Assembly (NCBI GenBank): GCA_002726935.1
Contig: PBTC01000024.1
Location: 1 to 36,319, forward strand
Length of the DNA stretch: 36,319 nt
Source: Candidatus Saccharimonadota bacterium
Lineage (GTDB): Bacteria; Patescibacteriota; Saccharimonadia; Saccharimonadales; Saccharimonadaceae
Direction: 5' to 3'
Shown here: piece after piece, positions 74-27,302 of the stretch
Layout of the letters: every line of letters begins with the position of its first letter
Numbering within the stretch: the first letter of the stretch is position 1
Program-made: the position numbers and the translations under genes
The notes under the pieces: generated by a model
What the model was told of the DNA's origin: nothing
The model's database searches: none
Seen by the model: the letters and a program-made list of their open reading frames with translations, nothing else

Positions 74-205
74 TTACTGTCTCAGTACAAGCAGCTCCGC
101 ATTCTGATTCTCGACCGCAAGAACAAACTGATCGCCGACGAAGTGCAACAGCGTGGCACCGTGGACGACACCCCAGTCTACCCACGAGAAGTCATCAAGC
201 GCGCT
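74..205 (+). pseudogene. radC: radC remnant (JAB-domain core only)
   Basis: A plus-strand reading frame gives a peptide with the highly conserved RadC segment: an RILILDRKN core, [19 protein letters not shown], then REVIKRA. This is the first part of the RadC JAB/MPN domain. The metal-binding HNHPSGDPTPS segment that should follow at once is absent: after KRA (about position 205) the frame reads unrelated sequence and stops at 391. The N-terminal helix-hairpin-helix part is also missing, since the frame is closed by a stop at 29-31. Only about 44 residues of a protein of about 220 remain, so it cannot be functional. RadC homologues often travel with genomic islands, and the defence genes start just to the right. 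Recognition of the family is firm; the reason for the truncation is inferred. Confidence 0.85.
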
Positions 206-400
206 TCATTACGCGACCCGATCTTTTCGCGCCGGCATTGGCGCAGGCAGGCCTCGCCCCCGACCGTGCTTGATCAGATTGGCTTCCGTTGCCTCGAATT
301 GCTCGAGAGCCGTCATGATGGAATTATTTGCTGTACTCGGCGTAGACATCACCTCCCCTTCGCCTGCTATGGAGGCGATACTGCGAGATAGAACTTTTAA

Positions 401-1126
401 CTAAGCTCGGTTTCCCGATTTTGCCTTTCCCGCCTCCAGAAAGCGCGACAACATCGCATCCATCGCTTCGGCAAGATTGTCGGGCTTTTCCGCCCGCAAC
501 TTTTCTGATTCTTCCACAACGTCAGAAAGCAGATCCCGGAGGACGTCCGGCGACGCCGTCAATGTCCTCAGTGCATTCAATTCATTCTGCGCATAACCAA
601 GAAACTCCGCATTTCTATCGGTGATCTCCTGAAGCATCTCACCCGTAATGCGTTCATTTGGCGCAACGAACTCGCCGCCAACCCAATCCACATAAAACGA
701 AGCGTTCTTGTTCTGATTTGACTCGCGGTGAAATTCGTCTTGCGTCCTCCTGAACGCTTCTATCGCACCTTTCCAGTCGCCCCGCGCTCGCGCCTCTCGT
801 TCTTCCTCGGATGATTCGAGCATGTAGGCGTTGGACTTGTTTTTCGACGAATGCCGCGCGAACGCGGCCAAGACCTTCTTCTGATCAACCTCAAGGCCGA
901 GAACGAGGCTAACACCCCACGCTCCGAGATTGTTCACCTTTGAACACTCCTCGAGCGAAATCTGGTGCAGGCAAAGGGCGCGGGCAAGCGCACCGGCTTT
1001 CGCCAGCAGCTCCGCCTCAAAGAAAAGTTGTTCCGCATTGGTGAAGGTCTTCTCTGCGCCCTGGAGCAGAACGTCCAAGGACGCTTGATTCTCATCCGCC
1101 TTGCTATCGGCCACCCGCATCTCCAT
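401..1126 (-). CDS. AbiV-like abortive infection protein (HEPN-type)
   Basis: The 241-aa soluble protein resembles the AbiV family of abortive-infection proteins. It shows NAEQLFFEAELL at residues 30-41, LHQISLEECSKV at 53-64, a charged RHSSKNKSNAY segment at 91-101 and KNASFYVDW at 120-128 followed by a proline-containing loop. This order matches AbiV proteins, which are grouped with HEPN domains; the Lactococcus AbiV stops phage growth by blocking translation. It is the last gene of the leftward defence run. Its start overlaps the end of the Mrr-like gene by 23 nt if the first ATG is used. A GTG at 1114, with GGAG about six bases before it, would give an 11-nt overlap and a protein four residues shorter. 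No promoter of its own fits in the overlap, so it is probably co-transcribed with the genes upstream. Family call fairly sure; mode of action inferred. Confidence 0.8.
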   Translation of the reverse strand: MEMRVADSKADENQASLDVLLQGAEKTFTNAEQLFFEAELLAKAGALARALCLHQISLEECSKVNNLGAWGVSLVLGLEVDQKKVLAAFARHSSKNKSNAYMLESSEEEREARARGDWKGAIEAFRRTQDEFHRESNQNKNASFYVDWVGGEFVAPNERITGEMLQEITDRNAEFLGYAQNELNALRTLTASPDVLRDLLSDVVEESEKLRAEKPDNLAEAMDAMLSRFLEAGKAKSGNRA

Positions 1127-2102
1127 CGAAAAGAACTTCGGTTAGATTTTCTGGCGGCGACCAAATCCCAGACTTCGCCTTCACATATGTCCGGCAAAGA
1201 GTGACGATCTTCTCCTGATCCCCGAACCTCAATTTTTCTCGCTCAATCGTGGTGAGCTGCTCAAACGCATTCTCGGTAAATCCATAGGTCGACAGAAACA
1301 GGCCACCTGCCTTCTTGTCCGTGACAATCACCTTGAGCAACTTCGCGACCGCGTCGGCACCAACCCGGGTCGATGACCGCCAATGCTTGATCTCGACATA
1401 ATAGGTCGCCTGCTTTCCGGCGACCTCACATTCCAGGATGACGTCCTTCCCGCCGTCCTTCGACCCTGGGGTGAGCGTCACCCGAAAGCCAAGCCCATCG
1501 AAGACCTCGGCAACAGTGCGCTCGACATCCCGCCATTCCAAATGGGCCAAGGCGCCGGGGTCTCGCGCGATGAGCCGGGCGAAACGCTCGCTGAGTTCGC
1601 GCAGCATGACCCGCACCTCTGTCTCCGCGTCGGGCTCAGCTTCCCGTACGAGCTCCAACCAGCTGCGCAGATCCTCAAGAGCTTTCAGTTCGACCGACAG
1701 TGGGAGGTCATGCTCGATCGTAGCCCTGGCCGCGGTAGTGAAGACGCAATTGCTGACGAGGATCACTCTACCCATCCCCCTCAACAGGCCAGCCCCGATT
1801 AGCTCCCTGACCTGCTCAACCGCGACCTTTCGTGCTCGTGAGTAAAACTTGGCTACCACCCCGAGGCTTTCCGCCGATCCGAGCGCTGGATCACCGCGGA
1901 CGCCCACGAAGTCGATCCCTTCGTCCCTGTGTGTGGATGTCGCTTGCAGGTCAAACCCTTCGACCCGGAGGATCGGCTTCAATACACCTCCCAAAATCCG
2001 CTCAGCCTCCATTGGCGATGGCGCCGATCCGACTTCGAGCCGGGCAATGTCTGCGATGATGCGGGTATATTCGTCATTCGAAATTTTGGTCGCAGCGCGC
2101 AT
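1104..2102 (-). CDS. Restriction endonuclease-like protein with two Mrr-type domains
   Basis: The 332-aa protein carries two copies of the Mrr-type PD-(D/E)xK fold. The C-terminal copy (about 185-300) looks catalytic: helix WRDVERTVAEVFDGLGF, then KDGGKDV with Asp220, then YYVEIKHW with Glu237 and Lys239, and GLFLSTYGFTENAF as the usual closing strand and helix. The N-terminal copy (about 35-150) has the same order (DEGIDF with Asp64, GVVAKFY with Lys85, VILVSNCVFTTAA), but the acidic residue expected two before Lys85 is a valine, so it is probably inactive. Mrr-type enzymes cut modified or foreign DNA. The gene lies 45 bp after abiH and overlaps the AbiV gene at its end. No methyltransferase partner is nearby, so it is not a classical restriction-modification pair. 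Whether it senses modified DNA cannot be told from sequence. Confidence 0.8.
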   Translation of the reverse strand: MRAATKISNDEYTRIIADIARLEVGSAPSPMEAERILGGVLKPILRVEGFDLQATSTHRDEGIDFVGVRGDPALGSAESLGVVAKFYSRARKVAVEQVRELIGAGLLRGMGRVILVSNCVFTTAARATIEHDLPLSVELKALEDLRSWLELVREAEPDAETEVRVMLRELSERFARLIARDPGALAHLEWRDVERTVAEVFDGLGFRVTLTPGSKDGGKDVILECEVAGKQATYYVEIKHWRSSTRVGADAVAKLLKVIVTDKKAGGLFLSTYGFTENAFEQLTTIEREKLRFGDQEKIVTLCRTYVKAKSGIWSPPENLTEVLFDGDAGGR

Positions 2103-2147
2103 TACCCAATCTGTTCCTCTTCGATCTCTCCAACCTGTTCGGGCACT

Positions 2148-3047
2148 TCAAAACTCACTCAGCAGGGCATATTCGACCAAATGAGACGGCACGCCCAGCG
2201 CCTCCATGCGCACGCGCAAGCCGTCGATATCGCCGTAGTAGCTGATCTTCCACCGAACCCGATCAACGTCGATGTTGGCAATCACCTCGCCAAAATATGG
2301 GTGATCAACGTCGGACACCGAGTGTCCCATCACCAAGATCCGATCCACGTCCGAAAGGCCGGCGAAGAAGGAGGCATTGTTTTCAATGACTTTTGATGTC
2401 GGCTTGAACGTGTCCTTGAAGTAGTCGTCGACAAGTCGCTGCCCTTCGATGACGCGAATGTCCGCGTCCTCCGGATCTCGTTCAAAGCGGTAAGGGTCGG
2501 GATTTGGATCGGGTTCCCACCCATGACCCAGAATAAGGGTGTCCGCTGGGTTCGCGGCCGCGCCGTGAATATGAAGTATGTTGATGTCAGGGACACCGTA
2601 CAGGCGCTGCAATGACGGGGTGTAGTTGAAGTTCAGGAAGACCGCGGAGGGGTCGACCGGGACGCGCCGTTCAACGATATCCGAAGCGGCCGGAATGGGA
2701 AGTTGACGAATCCATTCGGCAAACCGCAAACGCAACGTCGTCGAAATCGCCTCGACCGCCTGTTCTATCTCGTATTGATAGTCGTGGTGGTAAGCGTCGC
2801 TCCAATCCTCCGCCCCATACCCGACGAGGAAATTTGAGGCATCCTCGATCAGTGAATCACTGTCGAATGAGGCCAGCCGATCCTCAAACTCAGCCCAAAA
2901 CTGCGCGTCCATGGCGAAGTATTTCGCGACCACCTCATAGGTGTTGGAGTCGTGCTTTCGAAGATATTCACCGAACGCTTTATATGACGACGGAATGCCG
3001 TGGTGGAGATCGAAGCCATTTCCAATGATGTAGAGAGTCTTCGCCAT
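2148..3047 (-). CDS. AbiH family abortive infection protein
   Basis: The 299-aa protein opens with MAKTLYIIGNGFDLHHGIP, the signature of the AbiH family (PF14253). It keeps LNFNYT at 138-143, ILHIHG at 157-162 and a late GHSVSDVDHPYF near 241-252. AbiH proteins were first found as plasmid-borne phage-resistance genes in Lactococcus; their biochemistry is not settled. The GNGFD...NFNYT...HIHG...GHS order recalls SIR2-like NAD-binding proteins, which is an inference. The start at 3047 puts the glycine motif at residue 9, as is usual in the family. A longer reading starts at 3107, where TGATG overlaps the stop of the gene upstream, but it adds 20 residues with no family match. The gene sits in the middle of the defence run between the 229-aa protein and the Mrr-like protein. 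Confidence 0.88.
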   Translation of the reverse strand: MAKTLYIIGNGFDLHHGIPSSYKAFGEYLRKHDSNTYEVVAKYFAMDAQFWAEFEDRLASFDSDSLIEDASNFLVGYGAEDWSDAYHHDYQYEIEQAVEAISTTLRLRFAEWIRQLPIPAASDIVERRVPVDPSAVFLNFNYTPSLQRLYGVPDINILHIHGAAANPADTLILGHGWEPDPNPDPYRFERDPEDADIRVIEGQRLVDDYFKDTFKPTSKVIENNASFFAGLSDVDRILVMGHSVSDVDHPYFGEVIANIDVDRVRWKISYYGDIDGLRVRMEALGVPSHLVEYALLSEF

Positions 3048-3106
3048 CGGACACATTCTTCCGCAGTTCAACGTTGACGATCGGAGTTGCCCATGCCCGC
3101 CGCCCA

Positions 3107-3796
3107 TCAGTCATCCGTCTCCATGTCCACCTCCGCGATCAGCTCTTCGGCCAATTCCGAAAGCCACGGTGAGACATCATCAATCTGCACCGCGTTGCCG
3201 TGGTCCGCGTAGTAGTCTCCGAGCGTTCGGAATCTCTCACCGAACCGATCCGAGAACATTTTCTGCAGTTTGCTGTTTCTACTCAGCACGCTCGACATGG
3301 CCCGGCCACCTCGCAGGAACCTGATCGCGTGCTCGGTCCCCAGCAAATAGAGGTGCTTACGCTTCGCGGTCGGATGCTCTGCAAGCAACAGATAATCCTT
3401 GAAAACGGAATTCTGACGGATCGTTTCTGCGCCTCCACGCCACCGGATGAACTTGAATTCAGCAACCCGAACATTGGTCTCAAGATCGAAGTCACGGCCG
3501 GTATTCCCGGCGCCGAGCGATACAGATTCGACCCGCTCGTCCGGCTCGAGAATGTGCGGCAGACACATGAGGATGCCGAGCGCATGGATCGTGACGTTGA
3601 TTTGGCCGGCCAGCCGCTTCATCTCGGCGGCGGCCGCGAGAACGTCGCGGCCGGCCCCCGCGTTTTCAAGGAAGCCCCCGCAGTCTCCTGCCGTAACACC
3701 ACGAACCGCGCCTTCAATGCGCGATAGTGTTTGCGTCAGGTCCGAGCCGGTGAATCGTCCGACCAATTTGACGATCTCGGCCGGGTCTGCGGTCAA
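3107..3796 (-). CDS. Unknown protein with PD-(D/E)xK-like signature (defence operon)
   Basis: No named family was recognised. From a TTG start at 3796 the product is 229 aa, soluble, without signal peptide or membrane segment. A helical region (about 50-82) ends in ILMCLPHIL. It is followed by RDFDLET (101-107) and VAEFKFIRWRGG (111-122). The Asp/Glu, then Glu113-Phe-Lys115, then a basic helix order is what restriction-endonuclease-like folds show, so a nuclease role is proposed by inference. The TTG start is preferred over the ATG at 3826: a GGAGG lies about seven bases before it, and its TTGA overlaps the TGA stop of the gene upstream, a typical coupling arrangement. The two proteins are thus likely made in fixed ratio and may form a complex. 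The gene ends 59 bp before the abiH start. Confidence 0.65.
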   Translation of the reverse strand: MTADPAEIVKLVGRFTGSDLTQTLSRIEGAVRGVTAGDCGGFLENAGAGRDVLAAAAEMKRLAGQINVTIHALGILMCLPHILEPDERVESVSLGAGNTGRDFDLETNVRVAEFKFIRWRGGAETIRQNSVFKDYLLLAEHPTAKRKHLYLLGTEHAIRFLRGGRAMSSVLSRNSKLQKMFSDRFGERFRTLGDYYADHGNAVQIDDVSPWLSELAEELIAEVDMETDD

Positions 3797-4314
3797 TCTG
3801 CTGCCTCCAGCTCCAGGTGCATCCATTCCGTCAACTCTTCATCCAATTCGGCATCAACATAGACGTCGCAACGAGGGGCAACCCCTGCCTTCACGTCGAT
3901 CACCAGATGAAGGCCGACCAAATACCCATAGGGTCCAGCTTGCTCGGTCATGCCCTTGAGCTTCCAGATGTCCCCCTCGTAGTCCTTGTTCGTCGACTTC
4001 TTGACCTCGACGACCAGCAGGTTCTCCCTCCTTCCGACCCGATGCACGATCAGGTCAGGCACGATGGCGTCCTTGCCAATCAGTTCAGCGTCGCTGAGAC
4101 CGTATCGAAGACGTTTGATGACATCCTCGCGGCGATTCCATTCGAGATCGATCGACCAACCGGCATACTGGCCGTGCAGGAGATCCCGAACTCGAGCGAC
4201 AAGCGCGCGCTCGGCCGGATCGGCATACGCAAGATCCTTGTCCTGCAGCAGCGCACGCACCGCGGCCGCGAATACTGAAAGTGTTGCTTGCAAATCATCT
4301 CCCATACCACCCAT
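3793..4314 (-). CDS. Small PD-(D/E)xK nuclease-like protein
   Basis: The 173-aa protein shows a compact restriction-endonuclease-like core: an N-terminal helix with Glu39 (AERALVARVRDLL), then IVPDLIVHR with Pro86-Asp87, then LLVVEVKKS with Glu103 and Lys105, then the helix YEGDIWKLKGMT. The PD-x(15)-ExK spacing is good for an active PD-(D/E)xK site. Short proteins of this kind are common as unnamed genes in defence islands. It is the first gene of the tightly packed leftward group, with a 331-bp non-coding stretch before it, so the promoter of the group may lie there. The start is uncertain between ATG codons at 4314 and 4305; neither has a clean ribosome-binding site. It overlaps the next gene by 4 nt. 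The substrate is unknown. Confidence 0.7.
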   Translation of the reverse strand: MGGMGDDLQATLSVFAAAVRALLQDKDLAYADPAERALVARVRDLLHGQYAGWSIDLEWNRREDVIKRLRYGLSDAELIGKDAIVPDLIVHRVGRRENLLVVEVKKSTNKDYEGDIWKLKGMTEQAGPYGYLVGLHLVIDVKAGVAPRCDVYVDAELDEELTEWMHLELEAAD

Positions 4315-4645
4315 TTATCATGAATTACTTCAAAGAAAATCGGGGGCTCCGACGTGAACACCGAAATTGGCGGCACGGACGCGAAAACTGCAGCCGCGCG
4401 TCAGCACGACGGCTCCCGCGCGCAGCAACTGTCGCGGTTTTCAGGCAGGACGTCGCGTCTCGTTGACCCGGACTGCCTCCCATGACTGACGAGCATTCAC
4501 ATTCATCGGAGTGAGGCGTCTGGACGCGCAACCACTTGGATGCGGCGCGTTGTTGCCGAAGATCAGCTCGACAATTTCACAGCGGCGGACGCGATTCCGA
4601 TGAAAGTGCTCGAAAAACACGGCGCCCTCGCCGAGGGCTAGAATG
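4315..4645. other. Non-coding spacer between two parts of the defence cluster
   Basis: This 331-bp stretch has no convincing gene. Short open frames in it have arginine-rich, low-quality translations and no ribosome-binding sites. It holds a terminator-like hairpin just after the 438-aa gene on the minus strand, and by position it should contain the promoter for the leftward 173-aa/229-aa/AbiH/Mrr/AbiV group. I could not point to a convincing -35/-10 pair. Confidence 0.5.
4613..4638 (-). terminator. Terminator-like hairpin after the 438-aa gene
   Basis: Read on the minus strand, GCCCTC-GGC-GAGGGC forms a perfect 6-bp stem with a 3-base loop, 7 bases after the TGA stop of the 438-aa gene. Five T residues follow after a short GCCGTG gap. 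The T-run is offset from the stem, so it may be a weak terminator. It would separate the XRE/438-aa unit from the nuclease/AbiH/AbiV unit. Confidence 0.45.
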
Positions 4646-5962
4646 TCACTGCTCGACTTCACCCCCGCCCAGGAAATCTTCGAGTTTCGGCGGCCTCTGA
4701 TCTTCATCCTGAATGATGGTTCGCGACCAAAGGATCGACGTCTCGTAGACGGTGCTGCACAGCCGCACACCATCGTCCTCATACCAATGGGCCGCCTCAG
4801 GCAGAAGTTCGAACGGGACTGGATGCCGCGCGAAGGGGTTGTGAAAGACCTCCACCTCAGCCGTCCAGGGTTCGTATCCGTGAGGCCATAGCCCCCTATA
4901 TTCGTCGCTCGTAATATCCAAGCAGAACGGAGTGCCGGAGAGCGCCCCCGGGGTCCGGTCGAAGAAATTTCCAATCCGCGTGTACCGTAGGCCCTTCGGC
5001 GCCCCACCGCCGGAAATCGGCACGCGATACAGCTTGGCGATCGAGCAGGCATTCGAGAAAATCACCGCAGAAAGCTCCGCGTGACGATCGTCGGCGAACA
5101 ACCCGGCGGGAAAGGCCGATGGCCCGAGCAAGTGCGTGGCCGGCATCGCGACGGCTTGCGGCCGGCCGTCCACTGTCGCGACCTGTGCGCCTTCCCCATA
5201 CAAGTAGCCAATCAGTCCCTCCCGGCTCCAGATCATTGAGGACGGCGCCTGAAAGTCGGCGATGGCGATCATGAAGGGCTTGCCAGTGACATGCGGTAGC
5301 TTGTCGTAAGCCCGGTCCAGCTTGTTGCCCAACGTCTTCGCGAACCGCAGCGCGGCCGCGCCGAAGAACACTTCCTCTTTCTCCATCGGCATTGCTCCGT
5401 GCGGTGCGTTCACATGATTGTATGCGACCGGCGGGTTTGCCGTAACCGCTTCCACCCAGGCCTCGCCTCCAAGGCGGTTCGCGATATGAAAATCCGGAGA
5501 CTCATAGGGCTGTGTCACCAGCAACCCCTGCTCACGAAACGACGCAAGCAGTTGCGCCTCCCATATGCGGGTGTGGAAATTGCCGGTCTGGCAGTCGCTG
5601 CCCCAGTTCCGATCCGGCTTAGGGAGGGCAAGATAGAGATGGTTCAGCGCCCAGGCGGCTGGGTCATGCGATGGGCGCGTGAGCAGCTTGAAGACCTCGC
5701 TCGGTTCACGCCCTTGCAGATCAAACAGGGGTGGCCGCGCAGCGACCCCTGGTTTCATCGGCTCCAGCTCTTTGCCCTCGATCATCAACGGTTCGATAGC
5801 AAGCGTCGCCTCGTGCAGCGTGCCAAAGTCGGTCGCCTCGGCGGTAATGACCCAGACCGAATCAACACGGCGCCGCATGACGACATCGAAATCACGCGGC
5901 GCCTTAAAACGGTAGTATTGGCGCTTGAGCTCGATCTGCACGATCACATCGTCATCGGGCAC
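4646..5962 (-). CDS. 438-aa protein of unknown function, possible nuclease fold
   Basis: The protein was not recognised as a named family. It is long, soluble and has no signal peptide. A central segment reads RIWEAQLLASFREQGLLV (Glu135), then ESPDFHIANR (Pro156-Asp157), then AWVEAVTANP (Glu171). This E...PD...E order resembles a PD-(D/E)xK core, but the usual lysine after the last acidic residue is missing (VEAVT), so catalytic activity is in doubt. Further on, KPFMIAIADF and MIWSREGLIGYLYG look like conserved family blocks. Its ATG at 5962 lies inside the end of the XRE gene (11-nt overlap), so the two form a regulator-effector pair, a layout common in defence islands. The function as a defence effector is inferred only from context. 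Confidence 0.65.
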   Translation of the reverse strand: MPDDDVIVQIELKRQYYRFKAPRDFDVVMRRRVDSVWVITAEATDFGTLHEATLAIEPLMIEGKELEPMKPGVAARPPLFDLQGREPSEVFKLLTRPSHDPAAWALNHLYLALPKPDRNWGSDCQTGNFHTRIWEAQLLASFREQGLLVTQPYESPDFHIANRLGGEAWVEAVTANPPVAYNHVNAPHGAMPMEKEEVFFGAAALRFAKTLGNKLDRAYDKLPHVTGKPFMIAIADFQAPSSMIWSREGLIGYLYGEGAQVATVDGRPQAVAMPATHLLGPSAFPAGLFADDRHAELSAVIFSNACSIAKLYRVPISGGGAPKGLRYTRIGNFFDRTPGALSGTPFCLDITSDEYRGLWPHGYEPWTAEVEVFHNPFARHPVPFELLPEAAHWYEDDGVRLCSTVYETSILWSRTIIQDEDQRPPKLEDFLGGGEVEQ

Positions 5963-6269
5963 GCCACGTACACGTCGTTCCGCTCCGCCGGATTGCTTTA
6001 GCGACCCTGTTTCGAGACCTTGCGCCCCGGCCGCAAGGTCGGGACCGGCCCCGGCCTGCCCAGGCGATCACGAGTAGATCGCCGATATCTGCCAGGAGAG
6101 CCCTGATGATCTTTTCGTGCGCGGAAACAGTGGGGTTCTCGAGGTTGCGCTCAATCCGCCTGATGTACGTCCGATCGAGTCCGGCATCCACTGCAAAGGC
6201 TTCCTGAGAAAGTCCGGCGGCCACCCGGAGGCGTCGAACATTCCTGCTCGCCCGGGCACGCGCATTCAT
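5952..6269 (-). CDS. XRE-family helix-turn-helix regulator
   Basis: From the ATG at 6269 the product is 105 aa. Residues 9-48 form a clear XRE/Cro-CI helix-turn-helix: NVRRLRVAAGLSQEAFA, then LDRTYIRRIERNLENPTV. It probably binds DNA near its own promoter and controls itself and the 438-aa gene it overlaps. The C-terminus after IGDLL is arginine-rich and unlike other XRE proteins. A one-base shift near 6083 would instead read TRDRLGRPGPVPTLRPGRK and stop at 5998-6000, which looks much more like a normal XRE tail. The gene may therefore carry a single-base deletion, or the sequence an error. A longer reading from 6305 adds residues outside the usual family length. The gene upstream (6344) is divergent; 74 bp between them must hold both promoters. 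Confidence 0.8.
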   Translation of the reverse strand: MNARARASRNVRRLRVAAGLSQEAFAVDAGLDRTYIRRIERNLENPTVSAHEKIIRALLADIGDLLVIAWAGRGRSRPCGRGARSRNRVAKAIRRSGTTCTWRAR

Positions 6270-6343
6270 GCCCGGAGTGAACAAGTATGGGGTGCATGAC
6301 TCCACAGAACTATGTGTCTTATTATTAGCCAGAGGAGAATACT

Positions 6344-17377: not shown

Positions 17378-17434
17378 GAGCGATCCTCCACATCCTATGA
17401 CCCACATAACGCTCACTCACGATGAAGGCCCCGC

Positions 17435-18688
17435 ATGACTCCTGACTCGCTTCCGCCGCGCTATGAAAAAATAAACGAATGCCGCATCGGCGGCGGAAAC
17501 GACTTAGTTTCCGTTCTAAATCTCGGACATCAAGCGCTCACCGGCGTATTCCCAAAGGACGCCAATCAAAGCATCACTTCTGGGCCTCTTGAATTAGTAT
17601 GGTCCCCCAAGTCCGGTTTGTTGCAACTGGGTCACTCTTACAGCGCCACGGAGATGTACGGCGAAAACTATGGGTATCGATCCGGCCTAAATCAGTCCAT
17701 GGTTGACCACCTGACACGTAAGGCTCGCATGCTTGAGCAGCTAGCCCCTGTATCCCCAGGCGACACTGTACTGGACATTGGCTCCAACGACGGGACCCTT
17801 CTAAAGGCTTACTCCACAAGCTCACTGAATCGCATCGGCATTGATCCAACGGGCATCAAATTTAAAAGCTTTTACCCGCCCGACATTCAGCTAGTGCCGG
17901 ACTTCTTTTCCAAAAAGGCTTTTTATTTGGCTAGTTCTAGGAGCGCTACCCTCATCACCTCGATAGCAATGTTCTACGACTTGGAAGACCCCATCGGCTT
18001 TGCTCGCGAGATCGAGGCGTGTCTCACACCAGAGGGCATATGGCATTTTGAGCAGAGCTATATGCCTTCCATGCTCCGTCTTTGCTCATATGACACGATA
18101 TGCCACGAGCATATCGAATTCTACTCCTTGAGCGTCGTTAAAAAAATTCTCGAATGCGCCGATCTCAAAATTATTGATGTGCAGATGAATGCAGTAAACG
18201 GAGGTAGCTTTGCCGTAACCGCCGCGAAAAAAAACAGCTCAAAACCAGCGAATGATGCGGTTGTGAATTGGCTTTTAGAGAACGAACATCGCATGGGGTT
18301 AAATACCCCCCGCCCTTATCGGGACTTTGAGGAACGCGTGTATCGCCACCGCGAAGACCTGCGCCGCCTCCTTCAGTCTCTCGTGGCTGATGGAAAGAAA
18401 ATTATAGGCTACGGCGCCTCCACAAAAGGGAATGTAGTTCTTCAGTTTTGCAACATCACCAATAAAGAATTAAGCGCCATAGCGGAAGTAAATCCTGACA
18501 AGTTTGGATGCTATACTCCCGGCACTTCGATTCCAATCGTTTCCGAATCAGAAGCACGCTCTATGCGCCCTGACTACCTCCTGATTCTGCCATGGCATTT
18601 CAAAGATGGCATCGTCCGTAGAGAGCAAGCCTTCCTAGATGCTGGGGGCAAACTGATCATTCCCTTTCCCGAAATAGAAATCATCTGA
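17435..18688 (+). CDS. C-methyltransferase-like SAM-dependent enzyme
   Basis: The 417-aa protein has the three-part build of sugar C-methyltransferases (PF08421-PF13489-PF08484; NovU and TylC3 are relatives). The N-terminal part keeps VLNLGHQALTGVFP and YGENYGYRSGLN. The SAM domain has TVLDIGSNDGTLLKAY (112-125). CHEHIEFYSL sits at 223-232. The C-terminal part has IIGYGASTKGNVVLQF and LLILPWHFKDGI. In the usual family the N-terminal part holds four zinc-binding cysteines. Here the first pair reads CRIGG and the second WSPKSGL, so most of them are missing and the zinc site is probably lost. The likely role is methylating a nucleotide-linked sugar or its 4-keto form, or a related modification. 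It stands first in the GC-poor cassette, 21 bp before gmd. Confidence 0.82.
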   Translation: MTPDSLPPRYEKINECRIGGGNDLVSVLNLGHQALTGVFPKDANQSITSGPLELVWSPKSGLLQLGHSYSATEMYGENYGYRSGLNQSMVDHLTRKARMLEQLAPVSPGDTVLDIGSNDGTLLKAYSTSSLNRIGIDPTGIKFKSFYPPDIQLVPDFFSKKAFYLASSRSATLITSIAMFYDLEDPIGFAREIEACLTPEGIWHFEQSYMPSMLRLCSYDTICHEHIEFYSLSVVKKILECADLKIIDVQMNAVNGGSFAVTAAKKNSSKPANDAVVNWLLENEHRMGLNTPRPYRDFEERVYRHREDLRRLLQSLVADGKKIIGYGASTKGNVVLQFCNITNKELSAIAEVNPDKFGCYTPGTSIPIVSESEARSMRPDYLLILPWHFKDGIVRREQAFLDAGGKLIIPFPEIEII

Positions 18689-18703
18689 CCTTTAAATACC
18701 TGA

Positions 18704-20645
<1,942 letters not shown>

Positions 20646-20649
<4 letters not shown>

Positions 20650-21743
20650 CTCCCCCTTCTTTCACGCCCGACGTCTTGCAACTGAACGAGAACGATCGTC
20701 TGTAAAATAGTCCTAATCTGGGAGAAAAGAGTTTCAGGCGAAGCACCGTCCGCTTCTGCTTCAGGAATCTGCAATTTGTATCCATTTCGCAATAAAAAGA
20801 GCTCCAACAATGACTCAGTCATTGAAAGAACATCCAAAAGTTTCTCGCATGCACCACGCAGCGGGATAAGCTCGGAAAGAAGGGAATTTCGCGGTGATTC
20901 TTTAAATTCTGTACTCGAAAGTAACTCAGTGAGAAATGCCTCTATCTTCATCCCTTGGGATAGAGCGTTGCCGTATAACTCAACGCCCTCGGCCTCTGCG
21001 TCTCGACCGAATATTGCCCGATATGAATCACCGACTATCTCGGAGTAAGCCGCACCGCCAGAAGGTACTGGCAGTCCCCTTCTAAGGGTCAAAAATTCTG
21101 TGATAAGCGCCTCTACGCGCATGCCATTTTTGAGCGCTTCTCCATAGAGGCGGTGACCATCCGCCTCTGGTTCCCGCCCAAGCAGCGCTAAGTATACGCC
21201 TTGTACAATGTCAGCAATTGGGATGCTCCCAAGTTGAGAACAGCCGGATTCCGTAGCGCTTTGAAATTCTGAGGATGTCATGACTGGCAGCTTTTCAAGT
21301 TCTGCAGTGGCGTCACTTAGATGCGGCGCGAGTTCGTGCGCTTTAGCATAAAATTGACGAGCACGGCGGTAACGTCCCATTTTTTTTTCCAGATGCCCAA
21401 TTTGAAGATGAAGATCGGCATCTTCCGGCATAACACTGAGGGCTTTCTGATAAGCGTCGCCGGCGCGCCCATTTTGCCCCGCCTCTTTTAACGCATGGCC
21501 AAGCTGAACAAGGATTGGTCCATCGAGAGGAGATAGTTTCAAGTACTGAGTGTAGGCTTCAATTGCCTCCTTCCAGTTCTTTCTGTCGCGCGCGGCATCT
21601 CCGCGGTCTCGCCACTTCTGCGGGCCACCGAATATCCTAGTAATTAGATTCACCGCTAGGTCGCCTGTCGAAAAACTGGCCAGGATTATAGAATTGCCAT
21701 CCATTCGAACATCATCCAGATGAATAGGCGTTTCCTTTACCAA
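20646..21743 (-). CDS. TPR-repeat protein with two DUF4214 repeats
   Basis: The 365-aa protein has at least three tetratricopeptide repeats (about 41-140; WKEAIEAYTQYLKLSP, GRAGDAYQKALSVMPEDADL, RRARQFYAKAHELAP). These are followed by two DUF4214-like units (about 178-215 and 230-270: VYLALLGREPEADGHRLY and YRAIFGRDAEAEGVELY). No signal peptide or membrane segment is clear. TPR parts bind proteins. DUF4214 repeats often sit next to glycosyltransferase domains and in secreted or surface proteins, with no proven activity. It could hold a glycosyltransferase complex together or sense chain length; both are guesses. It is the only gene of this part of the cassette on the minus strand, with an ATG at 21743 or an alternative one at 21704. 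Confidence 0.75.
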
Positions 21744-21921
21744 AGGCGGAAATATTTTTGGTCTTCGGCTTTCGCGCTAGGCGAACCTGCCGACTAGAGT
21801 GCCTTTCATGGAAGTTGTGGAAGAATGCATCTTCTTGATCTTACTTCATAAAGACCGATAACGGAATGCGTCGTCCTTACAGGTTAGCAATAGCGCCCCG
21901 AGCATCGTTACGCGTGGTTAA

Positions 21922-24255
21922 ATGATGAGCAGCATCAAGGTCGACAACGTGGTTGTAGACGCGCGACCACTCCAAGACCCGGATTATAGATATCGCGGCG
22001 TTGGGCAGCATTCAACTACGCTTATCCGCGCGCTCCGGGAATACCATTGGTCATCGCGACGGCCTCGCTTAACAGCCCTCGTCGACTATCAAATGCTGCC
22101 CCTTACCGCTGACCATACAGCCTTGTTCGATGACGTAGTAAATGGCGGTGGGGCGCGCTCTGACACCAACTCTTGGTTTCTGAGTTTGTCCCCGATGACA
22201 CACGACCCATTGTGGGTAGCCGGGCTTCTCACGGATCCTCAAATCTACAAAATTGCACTTTTCTACGATCTTATTCCTCTTGAGTTTCCAGAGCGCTACC
22301 TAAGACACCATACGCTCAAGAGCGCTTATCTGACTTCCCTCGCCTGGCTCCGTCAGTACGATAAGTTCGCTTGCATATCCGAGTACACAGCCGAAAGCTT
22401 ACTACGAAGCTGCGGTGTGAGCCGGTCCCGCATGTTTGTCTCTGGAGTTGCCTTAAGACCAGAGCTGTCTCCTCTCGAAGCTTCCGAAATTGCATTTAAT
22501 GACCGGCGGTATATTCTCATCGCTGGAGGTGGCGATCCACGGAAGAATCCCGAATGCGCCTTGCGGGCTATTGGTGCATCAAGATTGTTGCAACGCCTAA
22601 ACCTGTCTGCCGTCGTCTTCGGCACTTATTCATCCGAAGCCAGAAGCGCGCTTAGAGCTCAGTTTTCCCAAGCGGGCGGCCCCGCGAGCTGTCTGCAGTT
22701 CCCGGGGCATTTGACCGACGCTGAGCTTCAGGACTTGTATAGAAGGGCTCTGGTAACGATCGTTCCGTCTTTTGCAGAAGGATTCTCGATCCCAATCATA
22801 GAAAGCGCTGTAAGCCGCACTCCTGTGCTGGTTTCCGATGTCGGCGCTCACCCGGAACTAGTTCGCAATGCCGCAAGGCGCTTCGATCCCGATAGGCCCG
22901 ACCAGCTTCAAAAGATGCTCGAACGTTTGGCGGCCGATCAAGTCGAGTGGGAAGAGGCCCAACGAGAGCAAGAAAATATATGGAAGCCGTATAGCGTTGA
23001 AGAGGTGGGAAAGCGCTTCATCCGCGGAGTGCTAGACAGACCGGTGGCGACTGCCGCCCCGCGAGTTCGACGCGCTGTGCGGCCAAGAATTGCCGTACTA
23101 ACTCCGATGCCGCCTGCGGAGTCGGGGGTAGCTGACTTCTCCGCCGCCACCTTGAAACCACTAGCCCAGTTCGCGGAGCTCCACCTCTTTACGGACACCA
23201 AGAATGTCAGGCCGGTTACAGGCTTTTTCTCTCAGATGCCAGTTCGAGCCGCGGGTCTACAACTGGGTCGTTTTGACCGGATGATATCTGTTATCGGGAA
23301 CTCCGATCATCACACATCAATCTTCCACCATCTGCTGCAGTACGGGGGCGCTGCCATCGCGCACGATGCCCGAATGATCAATTTTTACATGGGCGTCTTG
23401 GGTCTTCAGAAAGCCCTTACGGTCGCACGCTCGGAGTACGACGAAGATTGTAGTGCAGCCGATTTGCAAAAGTGGCTTCTGAACCAAAGAGAGTTGCCGA
23501 TACTGTTTCTCTCCGAAGTGGCAAGGTCCGCAGCTCCGCTAATTGTGCACTCGGCGGTAACTGCGAAGGCTATAACCAAACAGTACCGCGTTCAGCCGAA
23601 GCAACTTCCTTTCGCCCAGTATCGTCGCCTCCCATCCGACTTGTTGTCACCCAACACTCGCTCCTCCATTCGGCGCCGCATAGGATGGTCCCCGCGGGAT
23701 ATCGTCATTTGTTCCTTTGGCTTTGTCAGCGATGACAAGGCGCCCGATGAAATCATTTGGGCTCTGCGATTGTTGTTAGACTGGGGCGTTTCCGCCCGAC
23801 TGGTCTTCTGCGGATTCGCTCATCCTGGAACAGCTGAACGGCTCCGGAAGCTCGCTGGTGATATTGGCGTTCTCGATAGGCTTCAGTTGTTCGACACCGT
23901 GGTATCGGAGTCTGACTATGTATCCCATCTGGTTGCGACCGACCTCGCAGTACAGCTTCGCACATATTTTATGGGCGGCTTATCGGGGGGACTGGGAGAC
24001 TGCATCGCCGCAGCAGTACCAACTGTCGCTAATGAGCATCTCGCAGAGGCCATGGAGGCTCCCAGTTATGTCGTACGGACATCTGACCATCTCTCTCCGG
24101 TGCTGATCGCGGAGGCTTTATTGGATTTGATCCCATCCGCACATTATAAGGCTCGCCCGCTCGATGAGGCCGATTTGTTTCGGGCCAGTCATAGTCCGGA
24201 GAAGTACGTAGACCATCTACTAAATGCGCTGGATCTTGAGAAGGTCACAAATTGA
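21922..24255 (+). CDS. Double GT4 glycosyltransferase (two fused domains)
   Basis: The 777-aa protein consists of two GT-B modules. The first (about 1-380) begins VVVDARPLQDPDYRYRGVGQ and has LIAGGGDPRKNPECALRAI and PSFAEGFSIPIIESAVSRT with both glutamates of the GT4 motif. The second (about 395-775) opens RIAVLTPMPPAESGVADFSA, has IVICSFGFVSDDKAPDEII, and ends with LRTYFMGGLSGGLGDCIAAAVP, where the EGFG...E motif is changed and the first glutamate is missing. Fused two-domain transferases often build a repeating disaccharide. The second domain may be weakened or use another donor. The start at 21922 has no clear ribosome-binding site. The TGA stop overlaps the TTG start of the next gene by 4 nt. 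Confidence 0.85.
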   Translation: MMSSIKVDNVVVDARPLQDPDYRYRGVGQHSTTLIRALREYHWSSRRPRLTALVDYQMLPLTADHTALFDDVVNGGGARSDTNSWFLSLSPMTHDPLWVAGLLTDPQIYKIALFYDLIPLEFPERYLRHHTLKSAYLTSLAWLRQYDKFACISEYTAESLLRSCGVSRSRMFVSGVALRPELSPLEASEIAFNDRRYILIAGGGDPRKNPECALRAIGASRLLQRLNLSAVVFGTYSSEARSALRAQFSQAGGPASCLQFPGHLTDAELQDLYRRALVTIVPSFAEGFSIPIIESAVSRTPVLVSDVGAHPELVRNAARRFDPDRPDQLQKMLERLAADQVEWEEAQREQENIWKPYSVEEVGKRFIRGVLDRPVATAAPRVRRAVRPRIAVLTPMPPAESGVADFSAATLKPLAQFAELHLFTDTKNVRPVTGFFSQMPVRAAGLQLGRFDRMISVIGNSDHHTSIFHHLLQYGGAAIAHDARMINFYMGVLGLQKALTVARSEYDEDCSAADLQKWLLNQRELPILFLSEVARSAAPLIVHSAVTAKAITKQYRVQPKQLPFAQYRRLPSDLLSPNTRSSIRRRIGWSPRDIVICSFGFVSDDKAPDEIIWALRLLLDWGVSARLVFCGFAHPGTAERLRKLAGDIGVLDRLQLFDTVVSESDYVSHLVATDLAVQLRTYFMGGLSGGLGDCIAAAVPTVANEHLAEAMEAPSYVVRTSDHLSPVLIAEALLDLIPSAHYKARPLDEADLFRASHSPEKYVDHLLNALDLEKVTN

Positions 24256-25433
24256 CCGTCTACATAGATATTACCGAGTTTATCAATTGCCCCATACGAT
24301 CCGGCGTCCAACGTGTCGTGAGGGCCCTCTTGTCGAACTGGCCGAACGAAGTTGAAAGTCAGCCTGTAGTGTTTCATCGCGATACACGTCGTCTATATAA
24401 AGTGCCTCTCCGCGCGTTAGATTTTGCCGTCGAACTTGCGCGCCAAGATTTTGGCACTGATAGCGAAGTTCAAAACGAACTCAATTTTCTCGGAGCTTTC
24501 CGCCAGGACCGCCCAGTCTACTTCAGTGATTCCGACTCGGTTTTAATACCGGAAGTATTCTATGACCCCCCTCGTGTGGAATTCTATAAGTCTATTATTA
24601 TAACCAGCTCGGTCCTACCACATTTTATCGTTTATGACTTTGTCCCCTGGCTTAGGCCAGACGTGGTTCGTCTTGAAGTGGGCGCCGGAAGCGCTATCAT
24701 GCCTTACCTTCAACTGATTCAAATAGCGGAAAAACGTGCATTTATTAGTTCTGCTGTTAGAGATGATTTTGCTTATAGAGTTTTGCGGTCATCGAAGCCA
24801 AACAGGATGGGGCATGTAGTTCCGTTGGGTGCCGACGGAATTGGCGGAAGGCGACAGGAATTCGATCCCACAAAAACTGTCGTCGCCTGCATCGGAACTC
24901 TCGATGGAAAGAAGAACCAGCATTTGCTCTTCGAGGCCTTCACCTCGTTGGTGGACATACCGAACCTGCAGTTGGTGTTTTTGGGGAAGGCCCCCGCTGC
25001 TCCAGCCCCTTGGCTTCGATCTTTGCTTTTGTCGACGTCGGAGCGTGTCAAAATTATCGATAACCCGACAGATGAGCAAATTTTCCAGACGCTAACTACG
25101 GCCCGAGCAACGGCATTTATTAGCACAAACGAAGGCTTTGGCTTGCCAGCTATTGAAAGCTTATATTTAGGAATTCCCGTTATAGTACATAAGTCCCTTC
25201 CGGCTATTTCAAACTTGCCGAATGTTGGTCAAATTCGCTTGGAGAGTAACGACCATACACATCTTCAAGAGGCTTTGCGGCATATCGACAGCAATCAAAA
25301 GCTTGAGCAGCTTTGGAAAGAGGCCAAGACCCTACGTTTAGGTACCTGGAAGAGTTTTTCGAACAGAATTGCTGATTGGGCCCACAATCGACCGTTTGGG
25401 TCGCTCAAGAGGTCGGCTTGGCTAAGGCGCTGA
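24252..25433 (+). CDS. GT4 family glycosyltransferase
   Basis: The product is 393 aa from a TTG start at 24252 that overlaps the previous stop (TTGA). It has the GT4 layout: N-terminal VYIDITEFINCPIRSGVQRVV, then VVACIGTLDGKKNQHLLFEAF at the domain junction, LQLVFLGKA, and ISTNEGFGLPAIESLYLGIPVIV with the nucleotide-sugar glutamates. It is thus a retaining cytoplasmic transferase, co-transcribed with the double GT4. Donor and acceptor are unknown; GDP-D-rhamnose is a candidate from context. A perfect 12-bp palindrome (CTTGATATCAAG) begins 7 bases after the stop at 25440, without a T-run directly next to it. Confidence 0.86.
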   Translation: MTVYIDITEFINCPIRSGVQRVVRALLSNWPNEVESQPVVFHRDTRRLYKVPLRALDFAVELARQDFGTDSEVQNELNFLGAFRQDRPVYFSDSDSVLIPEVFYDPPRVEFYKSIIITSSVLPHFIVYDFVPWLRPDVVRLEVGAGSAIMPYLQLIQIAEKRAFISSAVRDDFAYRVLRSSKPNRMGHVVPLGADGIGGRRQEFDPTKTVVACIGTLDGKKNQHLLFEAFTSLVDIPNLQLVFLGKAPAAPAPWLRSLLLSTSERVKIIDNPTDEQIFQTLTTARATAFISTNEGFGLPAIESLYLGIPVIVHKSLPAISNLPNVGQIRLESNDHTHLQEALRHIDSNQKLEQLWKEAKTLRLGTWKSFSNRIADWAHNRPFGSLKRSAWLRR

Positions 25434-25498
25434 CCCATCCTTGATATCAAGATGCCGCTCTTCAAATTTTTACACTTGTATGCCATTTTGGACTATAT

Positions 25499-26506
25499 TT
25501 ATGATATTTTTCTTCCGAGAAATCCCGCTGCCGCTTTCACGATTGTTTGGTTGATCTCTTCGCCAGCATGAGTTGGTGAATATTCGCGTCTTAGCCTTTC
25601 TAATGGTCGTGTTCCTAAGCGCGCAATTGCCTGCAGGGAGTTTTTCTCGAGAGAGACTTCCGGGCATTCTGCAAGTATGTGACGAAACATCGCCGACGAG
25701 CTTACGGCGATGGGACGGCGAGCCGCTAACGCATAATCTATGCAACTTGATAGTCCGCGCTCGGCACCGTCCCCTTCATACGCAAACGCGTTAATTGTAT
25801 TTCCTGCTAAGAAGCGCAGCAGATCGCTTTCGCTCAAGAACTCGTCCAAAATCTCGAGCAGCACATGCTGCTGATCCACGGCATTTTGACATGCATTAAT
25901 GATGCTACTCCGCTCAAGTTCGGAGACCATCTCTTCACTATCGTGCTTGGGAATAAGCAACTTTATCTTAGCATGCTTAAATTGTCGGTCGACCAGACTG
26001 CATAGTTTTTCAAATCCCTTTCCCGGCGTGGCAAATCCGAAAGAGCCTACAGTAAACACTTCAGGCTCTCTTATGGTTTCTTTGAATTTTGGTATGAAGC
26101 GGGGAATTGACAGTATACGGCTATGTGTATTGGAAAGCGTGGGGTCCGGACAAAGACAGAAATCAAAAATACTGTACTCGACCGCATCTGCCACACCTGA
26201 ATTGACTTCGTGTACTATGGCGAAATTGCAGGTGTTGGTTCCATCAAAGGTCTTCCTAGTTACCCACCCTAGGGTGCTGGGATGGTAATTGAAGACTAAA
26301 ATAGAGGGTTGAAGTTCAGATATAGCCTTTTGAAGGGAATCAGGATTCTCACACTCCACGAAGGACCAGTTAATAAAATTGGTTTTTTTAAGTGCCTTGT
26401 AAAGGCGACGTCCATACTGATAGACACCGCAACGCTCACCGACATGCGATATGAGTGCACCGCGAGGTCGATGAATGCCGCTCCGAGAGTTTCCCGTGCG
26501 ATGCAT
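25499..26506 (-). CDS. Glycosyltransferase-like protein
   Basis: The 335-aa protein is related to GT-B glycosyltransferases but not to a well-defined family I could name. GERCGVYQYGRRLYKAL in the N-terminal part is the usual opening of GT4-type enzymes. VFTVGSFGFATPGKGFEKL matches the start of the donor domain, and ERGLSSCIDYALAARRPIAV takes the place of the EGFG motif, with the first glutamate at about residue 262. The start is uncertain: the segment before the glycine motif is longer than usual and no clear ribosome-binding site is seen. It lies on the minus strand 7 bp after the kpsM stop, so it is probably in one unit with kpsM and kpsE. The region is very AT-rich. Confidence 0.7.
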   Translation of the reverse strand: MHRTGNSRSGIHRPRGALISHVGERCGVYQYGRRLYKALKKTNFINWSFVECENPDSLQKAISELQPSILVFNYHPSTLGWVTRKTFDGTNTCNFAIVHEVNSGVADAVEYSIFDFCLCPDPTLSNTHSRILSIPRFIPKFKETIREPEVFTVGSFGFATPGKGFEKLCSLVDRQFKHAKIKLLIPKHDSEEMVSELERSSIINACQNAVDQQHVLLEILDEFLSESDLLRFLAGNTINAFAYEGDGAERGLSSCIDYALAARRPIAVSSSAMFRHILAECPEVSLEKNSLQAIARLGTRPLERLRREYSPTHAGEEINQTIVKAAAGFLGRKIS

Positions 26507-26513
26507 ATTCCAT

Positions 26514-27302
26514 CTATATAGGTTGGAAGTTGTTCCGGACTTTTTCTATAAACATCATTCCGAGGAAATTTAATATAAAGATCCACGCCAATACATAAGG
26601 CACTGAGAAGTGGGTCTCAATGTTGTTATTGAAAAAGCCTGCACGAAACATTTCATAGCAATGGACTAGAGGATTTAGCAGCACAAGTCTTTGGGCATCG
26701 CTTGGCAGCCATTCGACCAAAAAAAATACCCCCGAGATCGGTACCAAAAGGTATTGAATTGGCTGGATAAATCTTTCCATCGTTTCGTTGAGTTCAGTAG
26801 CAGCCAGAATAATAGCACCTGCGCCGCTTGCCAGCCCTGCCATCGCTAACCACCCCCCGATGAATAGGGCCCAATCGATAGTGGGGTCTATTATCCCCAT
26901 TAGAAAAAGCGTCAGCGTTACGATCACAAGGGCTGCGGTGGTTCCGCCAAATTCCAATACTATACGAGAAAAGAAAACGTCAAAGTGACTTACTTTCTGA
27001 TGATAGAATATAGCGGTACTCCGCCGTAGCAGTAGCACGGGAGATGTAGTTACATGCCTCCAAAGGGTAAGGAGCATATATCCAGTTAGAACGAGCTCAA
27101 CAATTCTTAGGCCGTGCTCGTAACCACCTTTTAGTACCGACCATAGAATGAGTACTCCGATTGTTAAGAGCATGGGCTCCAGAATTAGCCAAACGAATCC
27201 TAGGTGCTCGCGTCCGTATTTCATCATTATATCGCGGACCAGCAGTGCCATGAGACACCGTCTTTGAACGCTCCAACCCCTCAGGAAGAATCCTAATCTC
27301 AT
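26514..27302 (-). CDS. kpsM: ABC-2 type polysaccharide export permease (KpsM-like)
   Basis: The 262-aa integral membrane protein has about six hydrophobic segments (near 35-57, 68-82, 112-137, 142-165, 172-196 and 226-242), as in KpsM/CtrC/BexB. LLVRDIMMKYGREHLGFVW and LILEPMLLTIGVLILW near the start are typical. It forms the channel half of the transporter that moves capsular or other lipid-linked polysaccharide across the inner membrane, together with KpsT. The start at 27302 gives the family length (about 258); a longer reading from 27386 would overlap kpsE by 70 bp. It lies 14 bp after the kpsE stop. The ATPase it needs is encoded about 2.7 kb away on the opposite strand. Confidence 0.88.
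   Translation of the reverse strand: MRLGFFLRGWSVQRRCLMALLVRDIMMKYGREHLGFVWLILEPMLLTIGVLILWSVLKGGYEHGLRIVELVLTGYMLLTLWRHVTTSPVLLLRRSTAIFYHQKVSHFDVFFSRIVLEFGGTTAALVIVTLTLFLMGIIDPTIDWALFIGGWLAMAGLASGAGAIILAATELNETMERFIQPIQYLLVPISGVFFLVEWLPSDAQRLVLLNPLVHCYEMFRAGFFNNNIETHFSVPYVLAWIFILNFLGMMFIEKVRNNFQPI

Follow-up and report, generated by a model that had tools for sequence, protein, structure and literature searches.

The stretch analysed here, referred to as the window, comprises the 36,319 nucleotides of contig PBTC01000024.1, deposited as DNA of a Candidatus Saccharimonadota bacterium. It carries near its left end a cassette of minus-strand defence genes transcribed in the order A, B, AbiH, Mrr1, AbiV. 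The first gene of the operon, A (3793..4314, 173 residues), encodes a PD-(D/E)XK-like relative of component A of the PD-lambda-3 system. It is followed by B (3107..3796, 229 residues), an unnamed PD-(D/E)XK-like protein and candidate hub of the cassette; an open reading frame of 239 residues reaches 3826, and the conserved start is the TTG at 3796, which overlaps A by 4 nt. abiH (2148..3047, 299 residues from a conserved ATG at 3047, in an open reading frame reaching 3107) encodes a predicted SIR2-like (NADase-type) effector, mrr1 (1104..2102, 332 residues) a protein with Mrr-type nuclease domains in tandem, and abiV (401..1126, 241 residues) a candidate effector of the HEPN_AbiV type. B and abiH are separated by 59 bp, abiH and mrr1 by 45 bp, and mrr1 overlaps abiV by 23 nt; no terminator-like sites were found in the gaps among these five genes. 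An initial annotation, made from the letters alone, had described a composite defence operon of five minus-strand genes with this spacing, and the open reading frames bear it out. A sixth gene, which that annotation did not include, is present as the 5' end of a second Mrr gene (mrr2 remnant, 265..349, minus strand, ~28 codons).

The distribution of the cassette was examined by querying plasmids, and a collection with a single genome for each species, using exact patterns taken from the window's B; genes were called and profiles scanned at the resulting loci, which numbered over 40 (individual loci are given below as L numbers). Distant relatives of B are under-sampled by this design because it combines one genome per species with an exact-pattern query. 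The complete order A-B-AbiH-Mrr1-AbiV-Mrr2 was found in Bradyrhizobium manausense, B. stylosanthis and a Sinorhizobium medicae plasmid (L009, L011, L012), in whose record B reads with frameshifts. Six loci contained A-B-AbiH only (L005, Sinorhizobium fredii; L006 and L043, Rhizobium; L014, Labrys; L015, Hoeflea; L139) and three contained A-B-AbiV-Mrr2 (L003, L004 and L013; two Agrobacterium plasmids and Rhizobium LC145). The mrr2 gene follows abiV in L003, L009, L011, L012 and L013, and its intact relative matches Mrr_cat (E 2.3e-9). In the B-locus survey, an A of the cassette's subfamily was always followed by B. AbiH proteins of at least 77-85% identity, whether from the plasmids searched or from the genomes surveyed, always lay directly after A-B, at a conserved distance of ~56-59 bp.

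The window's cassette shares 91% DNA identity with the Bradyrhizobium copies over 4288 bp (~4549 to ~265), beyond which homology ends on both sides, and 77.5% with the S. medicae copy. Three carrier genomes had no long match to the right-hand 9 kb of the window, which fits a cassette moving as a unit. Its composition is mosaic: A, B, AbiH and Mrr1 are ~95% identical to their Bradyrhizobium counterparts, AbiV is 82% identical to that of Bradyrhizobium and 90% (DNA) to that of an Agrobacterium A-B-AbiV cassette, so that AbiV has a separate history within the cassette. With its order kept in different genera and replicons at DNA identities of 78-91%, the five-gene set is more than a chance stack, and the initial annotation's first ground for refutation, that these genes never occur together elsewhere, does not apply. 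Across about 50 relatives the A-B core is constant and the tails are interchangeable; this pattern suggests mix-and-match anti-phage immunity, in a cassette that is probably horizontally mobile.

Gene A matches the PADLOC profile PD-Lambda-3_A (PDLC03986, E 3.4e-18); neither A nor B matched a Pfam or NCBIfam family. P86 and D87, E103-x-K105-K106, E35 and R61 of A are invariant in 13/13 relatives ranging from Rhizobiales to Photobacterium. PD-lambda-3 of E. coli (Vassallo et al. 2022, PMC9519451; plasmid copies L046 and L047) has a homologous A of 159 residues with 34% identity, and the P-D...E-x-K residues are invariant in both. The two systems are also alike in having a second defence protein directly after A and a HEPN protein in the set. 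In enterobacterial plasmids, A (PD-Lambda-3_A, E 2.3e-100) is followed by a TIGR02391/Ymh HEPN protein corresponding to PD-Lambda-3_B (E 1.2e-179 in L046), which also matches the Aga_HEPN profile, whereas in the cassette the product of the second gene has a PD-(D/E)XK fold and no relation to this HEPN protein, and the set is enlarged relative to PD-lambda-3 by AbiH, Mrr and AbiV. The PD-Lambda-3_B profile (PDLC03987) matched neither the window's B nor anything else in the genome bin to which the contig was assigned. Despite the match of its A, the cassette is therefore most improbably a true member of PD-lambda-3, a reading already disfavoured by the absence of the defining HEPN partner. Since A occurs with a HEPN protein in Enterobacteria (L046) and with B in Rhizobiales, it changes partner by lineage, which ties PD-lambda-3 A to a wider, partner-changing family. 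The initial claim that no named system has this set thus held for the whole set in the open-access literature, though not for A itself.

A and B were also considered as paralogues, and this was rejected by profile-profile comparison (probability 0.8%). No relatives of A were found in the scanned viral contigs, and a sequence search of the PDB with AbiH, AbiV, A and B gave no useful match. Elsewhere, A-like proteins stand alone or in other contexts. The Bradyrhizobium chromosomal A-like proteins (L147-L161, ~171 residues) adjoin one conserved gene at 14 loci, identified as a thiamine pyrophosphate (TPP) enzyme in L148, the one scanned, and in those aligned E-x-R replaces E-x-K. Owing to the shared conserved neighbour and the altered motif, these chromosomal proteins are probably paralogues with another, possibly non-defence role. 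The idea that all Bradyrhizobium A-like proteins serve defence was ruled out on the same grounds, as most matches at the level of the order lie beside the conserved gene.

In an alignment of 32 B sequences, taken from groups as far apart as Rhizobiales, Acidobacteria and Chloroflexi, 42 columns are invariant, and D114 and E123-x-K125 are invariant in 32/32 rows. The nuclease signatures that the initial annotation had seen in two unnamed proteins are therefore conserved in both A and B. The AlphaFold2 model of B (pLDDT 85.8, pTM 0.84) has a core in the order alpha-beta-beta-beta-alpha-beta (H77-92, E99-102, E115-117, E120-125, H134-150, E156-161), with the D...E-x-K residues on strands 2-3. Foldseek comparison of this model with the PDB gave no match with E < 0.001; the best was EcoO109I (E 0.023, TM 0.24). 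The weak top matches include EcoO109I, BstEII, Cap4 and Cdn1, several of which we take to be nucleases with, or proteins bearing, a PD-(D/E)XK fold, and the best viral match was an Mrr-domain protein (E 0.045). The structure prediction proposed for the 229-residue protein thus recovered the expected core order, without a significant match to a solved member, and for this reason we label B as PD-(D/E)XK-like only, by modelled core topology and motif, with family membership unproven.

The gene upstream of B varies. It is A in about 14 loci, a ~514-residue nuclease-like protein in 13, and SRAP or others in a few. The 514-residue protein precedes B, with its gene overlapping that of B by 4 nt in the loci checked, and has its own C-terminal D...Q-x-K motif; that it might be a fusion containing A was ruled out, the A profile having no match there. 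In L031 (1899-8699), a type I HsdR gene and an HsdM-S fusion are followed on the same strand, with short gaps, by a 517-residue nuclease-like protein and B, the latter pair extending a type I restriction-modification operon in an undescribed manner. An SRAP (HMCES-like) peptidase gene lies directly 5' of B in L027 (7393-8711) and L034, with an overlap of 4 nt in L027. In L120 and L121, a B copy with 55% identity lies directly behind a protein of 397-495 residues with a trypsin-like GGVSGG motif (motif only), possibly another exchangeable partner. With A, the 514-residue, the SRAP and the GGVSGG proteins all found upstream of B, exchange of partners extends to this side of B as well.

B was present in 11/266 Bradyrhizobium genomes, several copies being degraded, in 4/397 Hyphomicrobiales genomes and in 0/100 other genomes from the family to which the bin belongs. 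Many Bradyrhizobium copies (L124-L137) contain stops or are fragmentary, some adjoining remnants of the 514-residue gene, and the pair of the 514-residue protein and B often decays in this genus. It is possible, if rather doubtful, that B founds a new defence hub family, a near-invariant protein linking exchangeable upstream partners to exchangeable suicide effectors (AbiH, AbiV); AbiH and AbiV would then belong, in Alphaproteobacteria, to multi-gene systems that use them as effector modules. Its 42 invariant columns make B the most constant part of these loci while the upstream partner varies, and B could for this reason be viewed as a conserved effector nuclease with an exchangeable sensor upstream, AbiH and AbiV being optional back-ups should a phage inhibit B. 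We regard this as improbable, since the active site of A is equally conserved and the guard relation is without evidence.

The initial annotation had assigned two of the genes to the AbiH and AbiV families and proposed both as toxic effectors. The family assignments are confirmed far above cut-off, that of AbiH by a full-length match to PF14253 (252 bits against 30.9, E 1.6e-74, positions 1-260/260) in which the GNGFD, FNYT and HIHG motifs are kept. The AlphaFold2 model of AbiH (pLDDT 88.9) has a SIR2-like fold: its top 25 Foldseek matches are SIR2-HerA chains, ThsA and related entries of HerA complexes, with probabilities up to 0.99 and a best E of 7e-4, although the TM-scores are only 0.3-0.4. 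All of 38 diverse AbiH proteins share N161 and H181 (open reading frame numbering), the residue pair that SIR2 enzymes would lead one to expect and the putative counterpart of the conserved N and H with a role in ThsA and FAM118 (PMC12700824). A Sir2-like nature had been predicted for AbiH in 2012 (PMC3506569); a recent table still gives its mechanism as unknown (PMC12322248). Owing to the fold matches and the invariant N161 and H181, destruction of NAD+ is the best prediction for AbiH, and NADase activity is thereby a prediction that can be tested. AbiH resembles the anti-phage SIR2 effectors SIR2-HerA/Nezha and ThsA in predicted fold and presumably in these two residues, but HerA, TIR and cyclic-nucleotide-sensing partners are all absent here, and A-B is the candidate partner instead. 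The family is usually described as a single gene, whereas here it is the third gene of an operon, after A-B.

An effector role is supported for AbiH by its fold and for AbiV by family membership only (PF18728, 116 bits against 27.1, E 2.1e-33; TIGR04498, 104.5 against 27). AbiV is known as a single-gene system of the HEPN superfamily; here its gene overlaps that of Mrr1, and a second Mrr gene comes next in intact relatives. R49, H54 and H92 are invariant in 11 relatives, with an R49-x4-H54 spacing. This spacing was dropped as proof of RNase activity, AbiV having been reported as a HEPN protein that lacks the canonical motif and uses an alternative His (PMC3710099); an attack on RNA or translation is accordingly what we would expect by analogy, and RNase activity is an inference only. 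Mrr1 matches Mrr_cat (PF04471, 111 bits against 21, E 5.1e-32) in two stretches, in line with the tandem Mrr noted initially, and is 86-95% identical in L009/L011. It shares the Mrr_cat domain with D...E-x-K with Mrr/type IV restriction enzymes and the PADLOC candidate PDC-S02 (E 2.7e-15), which stand alone, whereas the Mrr of the cassette sits inside an operon.

We tentatively propose, with not quite even confidence, that these genes form a horizontally mobile, modular abortive-infection cassette. A and B, a translationally coupled pair with intact PD-(D/E)XK residues, would together recognise and/or cut phage DNA, and the tail would consist of interchangeable killing modules sharing the A-B transcript: AbiH as a SIR2-like enzyme destroying NAD+, AbiV as a HEPN protein hitting RNA or translation, and Mrr-type DNases acting on DNA. 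Engagement of phage DNA by A-B would trigger or license the tail, and the infected cell would stop before phage release. This coupling is supported by a core that stays constant while tails vary, by a gene order kept at 78-91% identity and by the absence of terminators in the gaps. Further support comes from PD-lambda-3, in which A is paired with a HEPN protein and which acts via abortive infection (PMC13190303), from the likeness of the AbiH fold to ThsA and SIR2-HerA, and from the mosaic history of the cassette. That the nuclease-like pair drives the effectors, as was suggested initially, would agree with a constant core and variable tails but is unproven.

Several observations weigh against a coupled cassette. 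Relatives of AbiH with 46-63% identity stand last in unrelated operons (N6 methylase, ABC-three-component, AAA protein), AbiV relatives without A exist behind an opposite-strand gene or on other plasmids, and A-B occurs without AbiH or AbiV in Croceicoccus (L033). A-like proteins were found in 20/397 Hyphomicrobiales genomes with B adjacent in only 2, and the Foldseek matches of B are weak. The contexts of the AbiH and AbiV relatives would also suit a stack of independent modules, the alternative raised in the initial annotation. In such a stack A-B would be a nuclease system in its own right, and AbiH, AbiV and Mrr separate single-gene defences with their own triggers, sharing transcription and mobility. 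Lactic acid bacteria are the reported source of both AbiH and AbiV, which were described there as single genes decades ago; AbiV is generally known to work in this way, and AbiV and Mrr homologues are found elsewhere without A-B. In these bacteria AbiH functions on its own (PMC12322248) and, as its relatives also end unrelated operons, it need not depend on A-B; owing to this promiscuity the coupled model is given no higher probability. Independent stacking is quite plausible, though we would place it somewhat short of even. It accounts poorly for the close AbiH relatives that always lie directly behind A-B at a near-fixed gap, for an order kept at 78% DNA identity and for the 23-nt overlap of mrr1 and abiV. 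The sequence fits both effectors that depend on A-B and independent modules sharing its transcript. Cassettes that carry AbiH, AbiV, both or neither behind the same core form a natural series in which dependence of such effectors on an upstream nuclease pair can be tested directly.

Upstream of the coupled cassette that we favour, the leader (4315..4645) is the probable A-B promoter region, in which no consensus promoter was found; a terminator-like hairpin on the minus strand (4620-4638) closes the preceding unit. That unit, not part of the initial annotation, consists of a PD-T7-1-like gene (4646..5962, minus strand, 438 residues; PADLOC PD-T7-1, E 8.2e-61 over 329 residues) and an HTH_3 (Cro/C1-type) regulator gene (5952..6305, minus strand; PF01381, E 2.2e-9). 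The PD-T7-1-like gene and the cassette are co-directional, and because 331 bp and the hairpin lie between them, the two upstream genes are probably a separate unit. PD-T7-1-like homologues are recurrent neighbours: they adjoin A-B in L005, L006, L009 and L043, with amidohydrolase and DUF5677 genes, and the pair of the 514-residue protein and B in L029. On the other side, a radC fragment (83..205, plus strand; PF04002 RadC, E 5e-9) abuts the truncated end of the cassette, and together with the cut mrr2 it marks a recombination junction at the left end of the contig.

The bin has a lysM-TM7 RNA, a GC content near 50% and small relatives (0.7-1.1 Mb), and belongs to Saccharibacteria (TM7). Most of the window is higher in GC, reaching 66-70%, and the window contains an outer-membrane-type polysaccharide export (Poly_export/SLBB) gene and the rhizobial cassette. 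The contig (G000:C24) is almost certainly misbinned alphaproteobacterial DNA, and therefore no finding reported here is attributable to Saccharibacteria. Within the window, positions 17400-27000 form a lower-GC island (0.51) amid DNA of 0.58-0.66, with genes for a GDP-mannose dehydratase, a C-methyltransferase and a glycosyltransferase.

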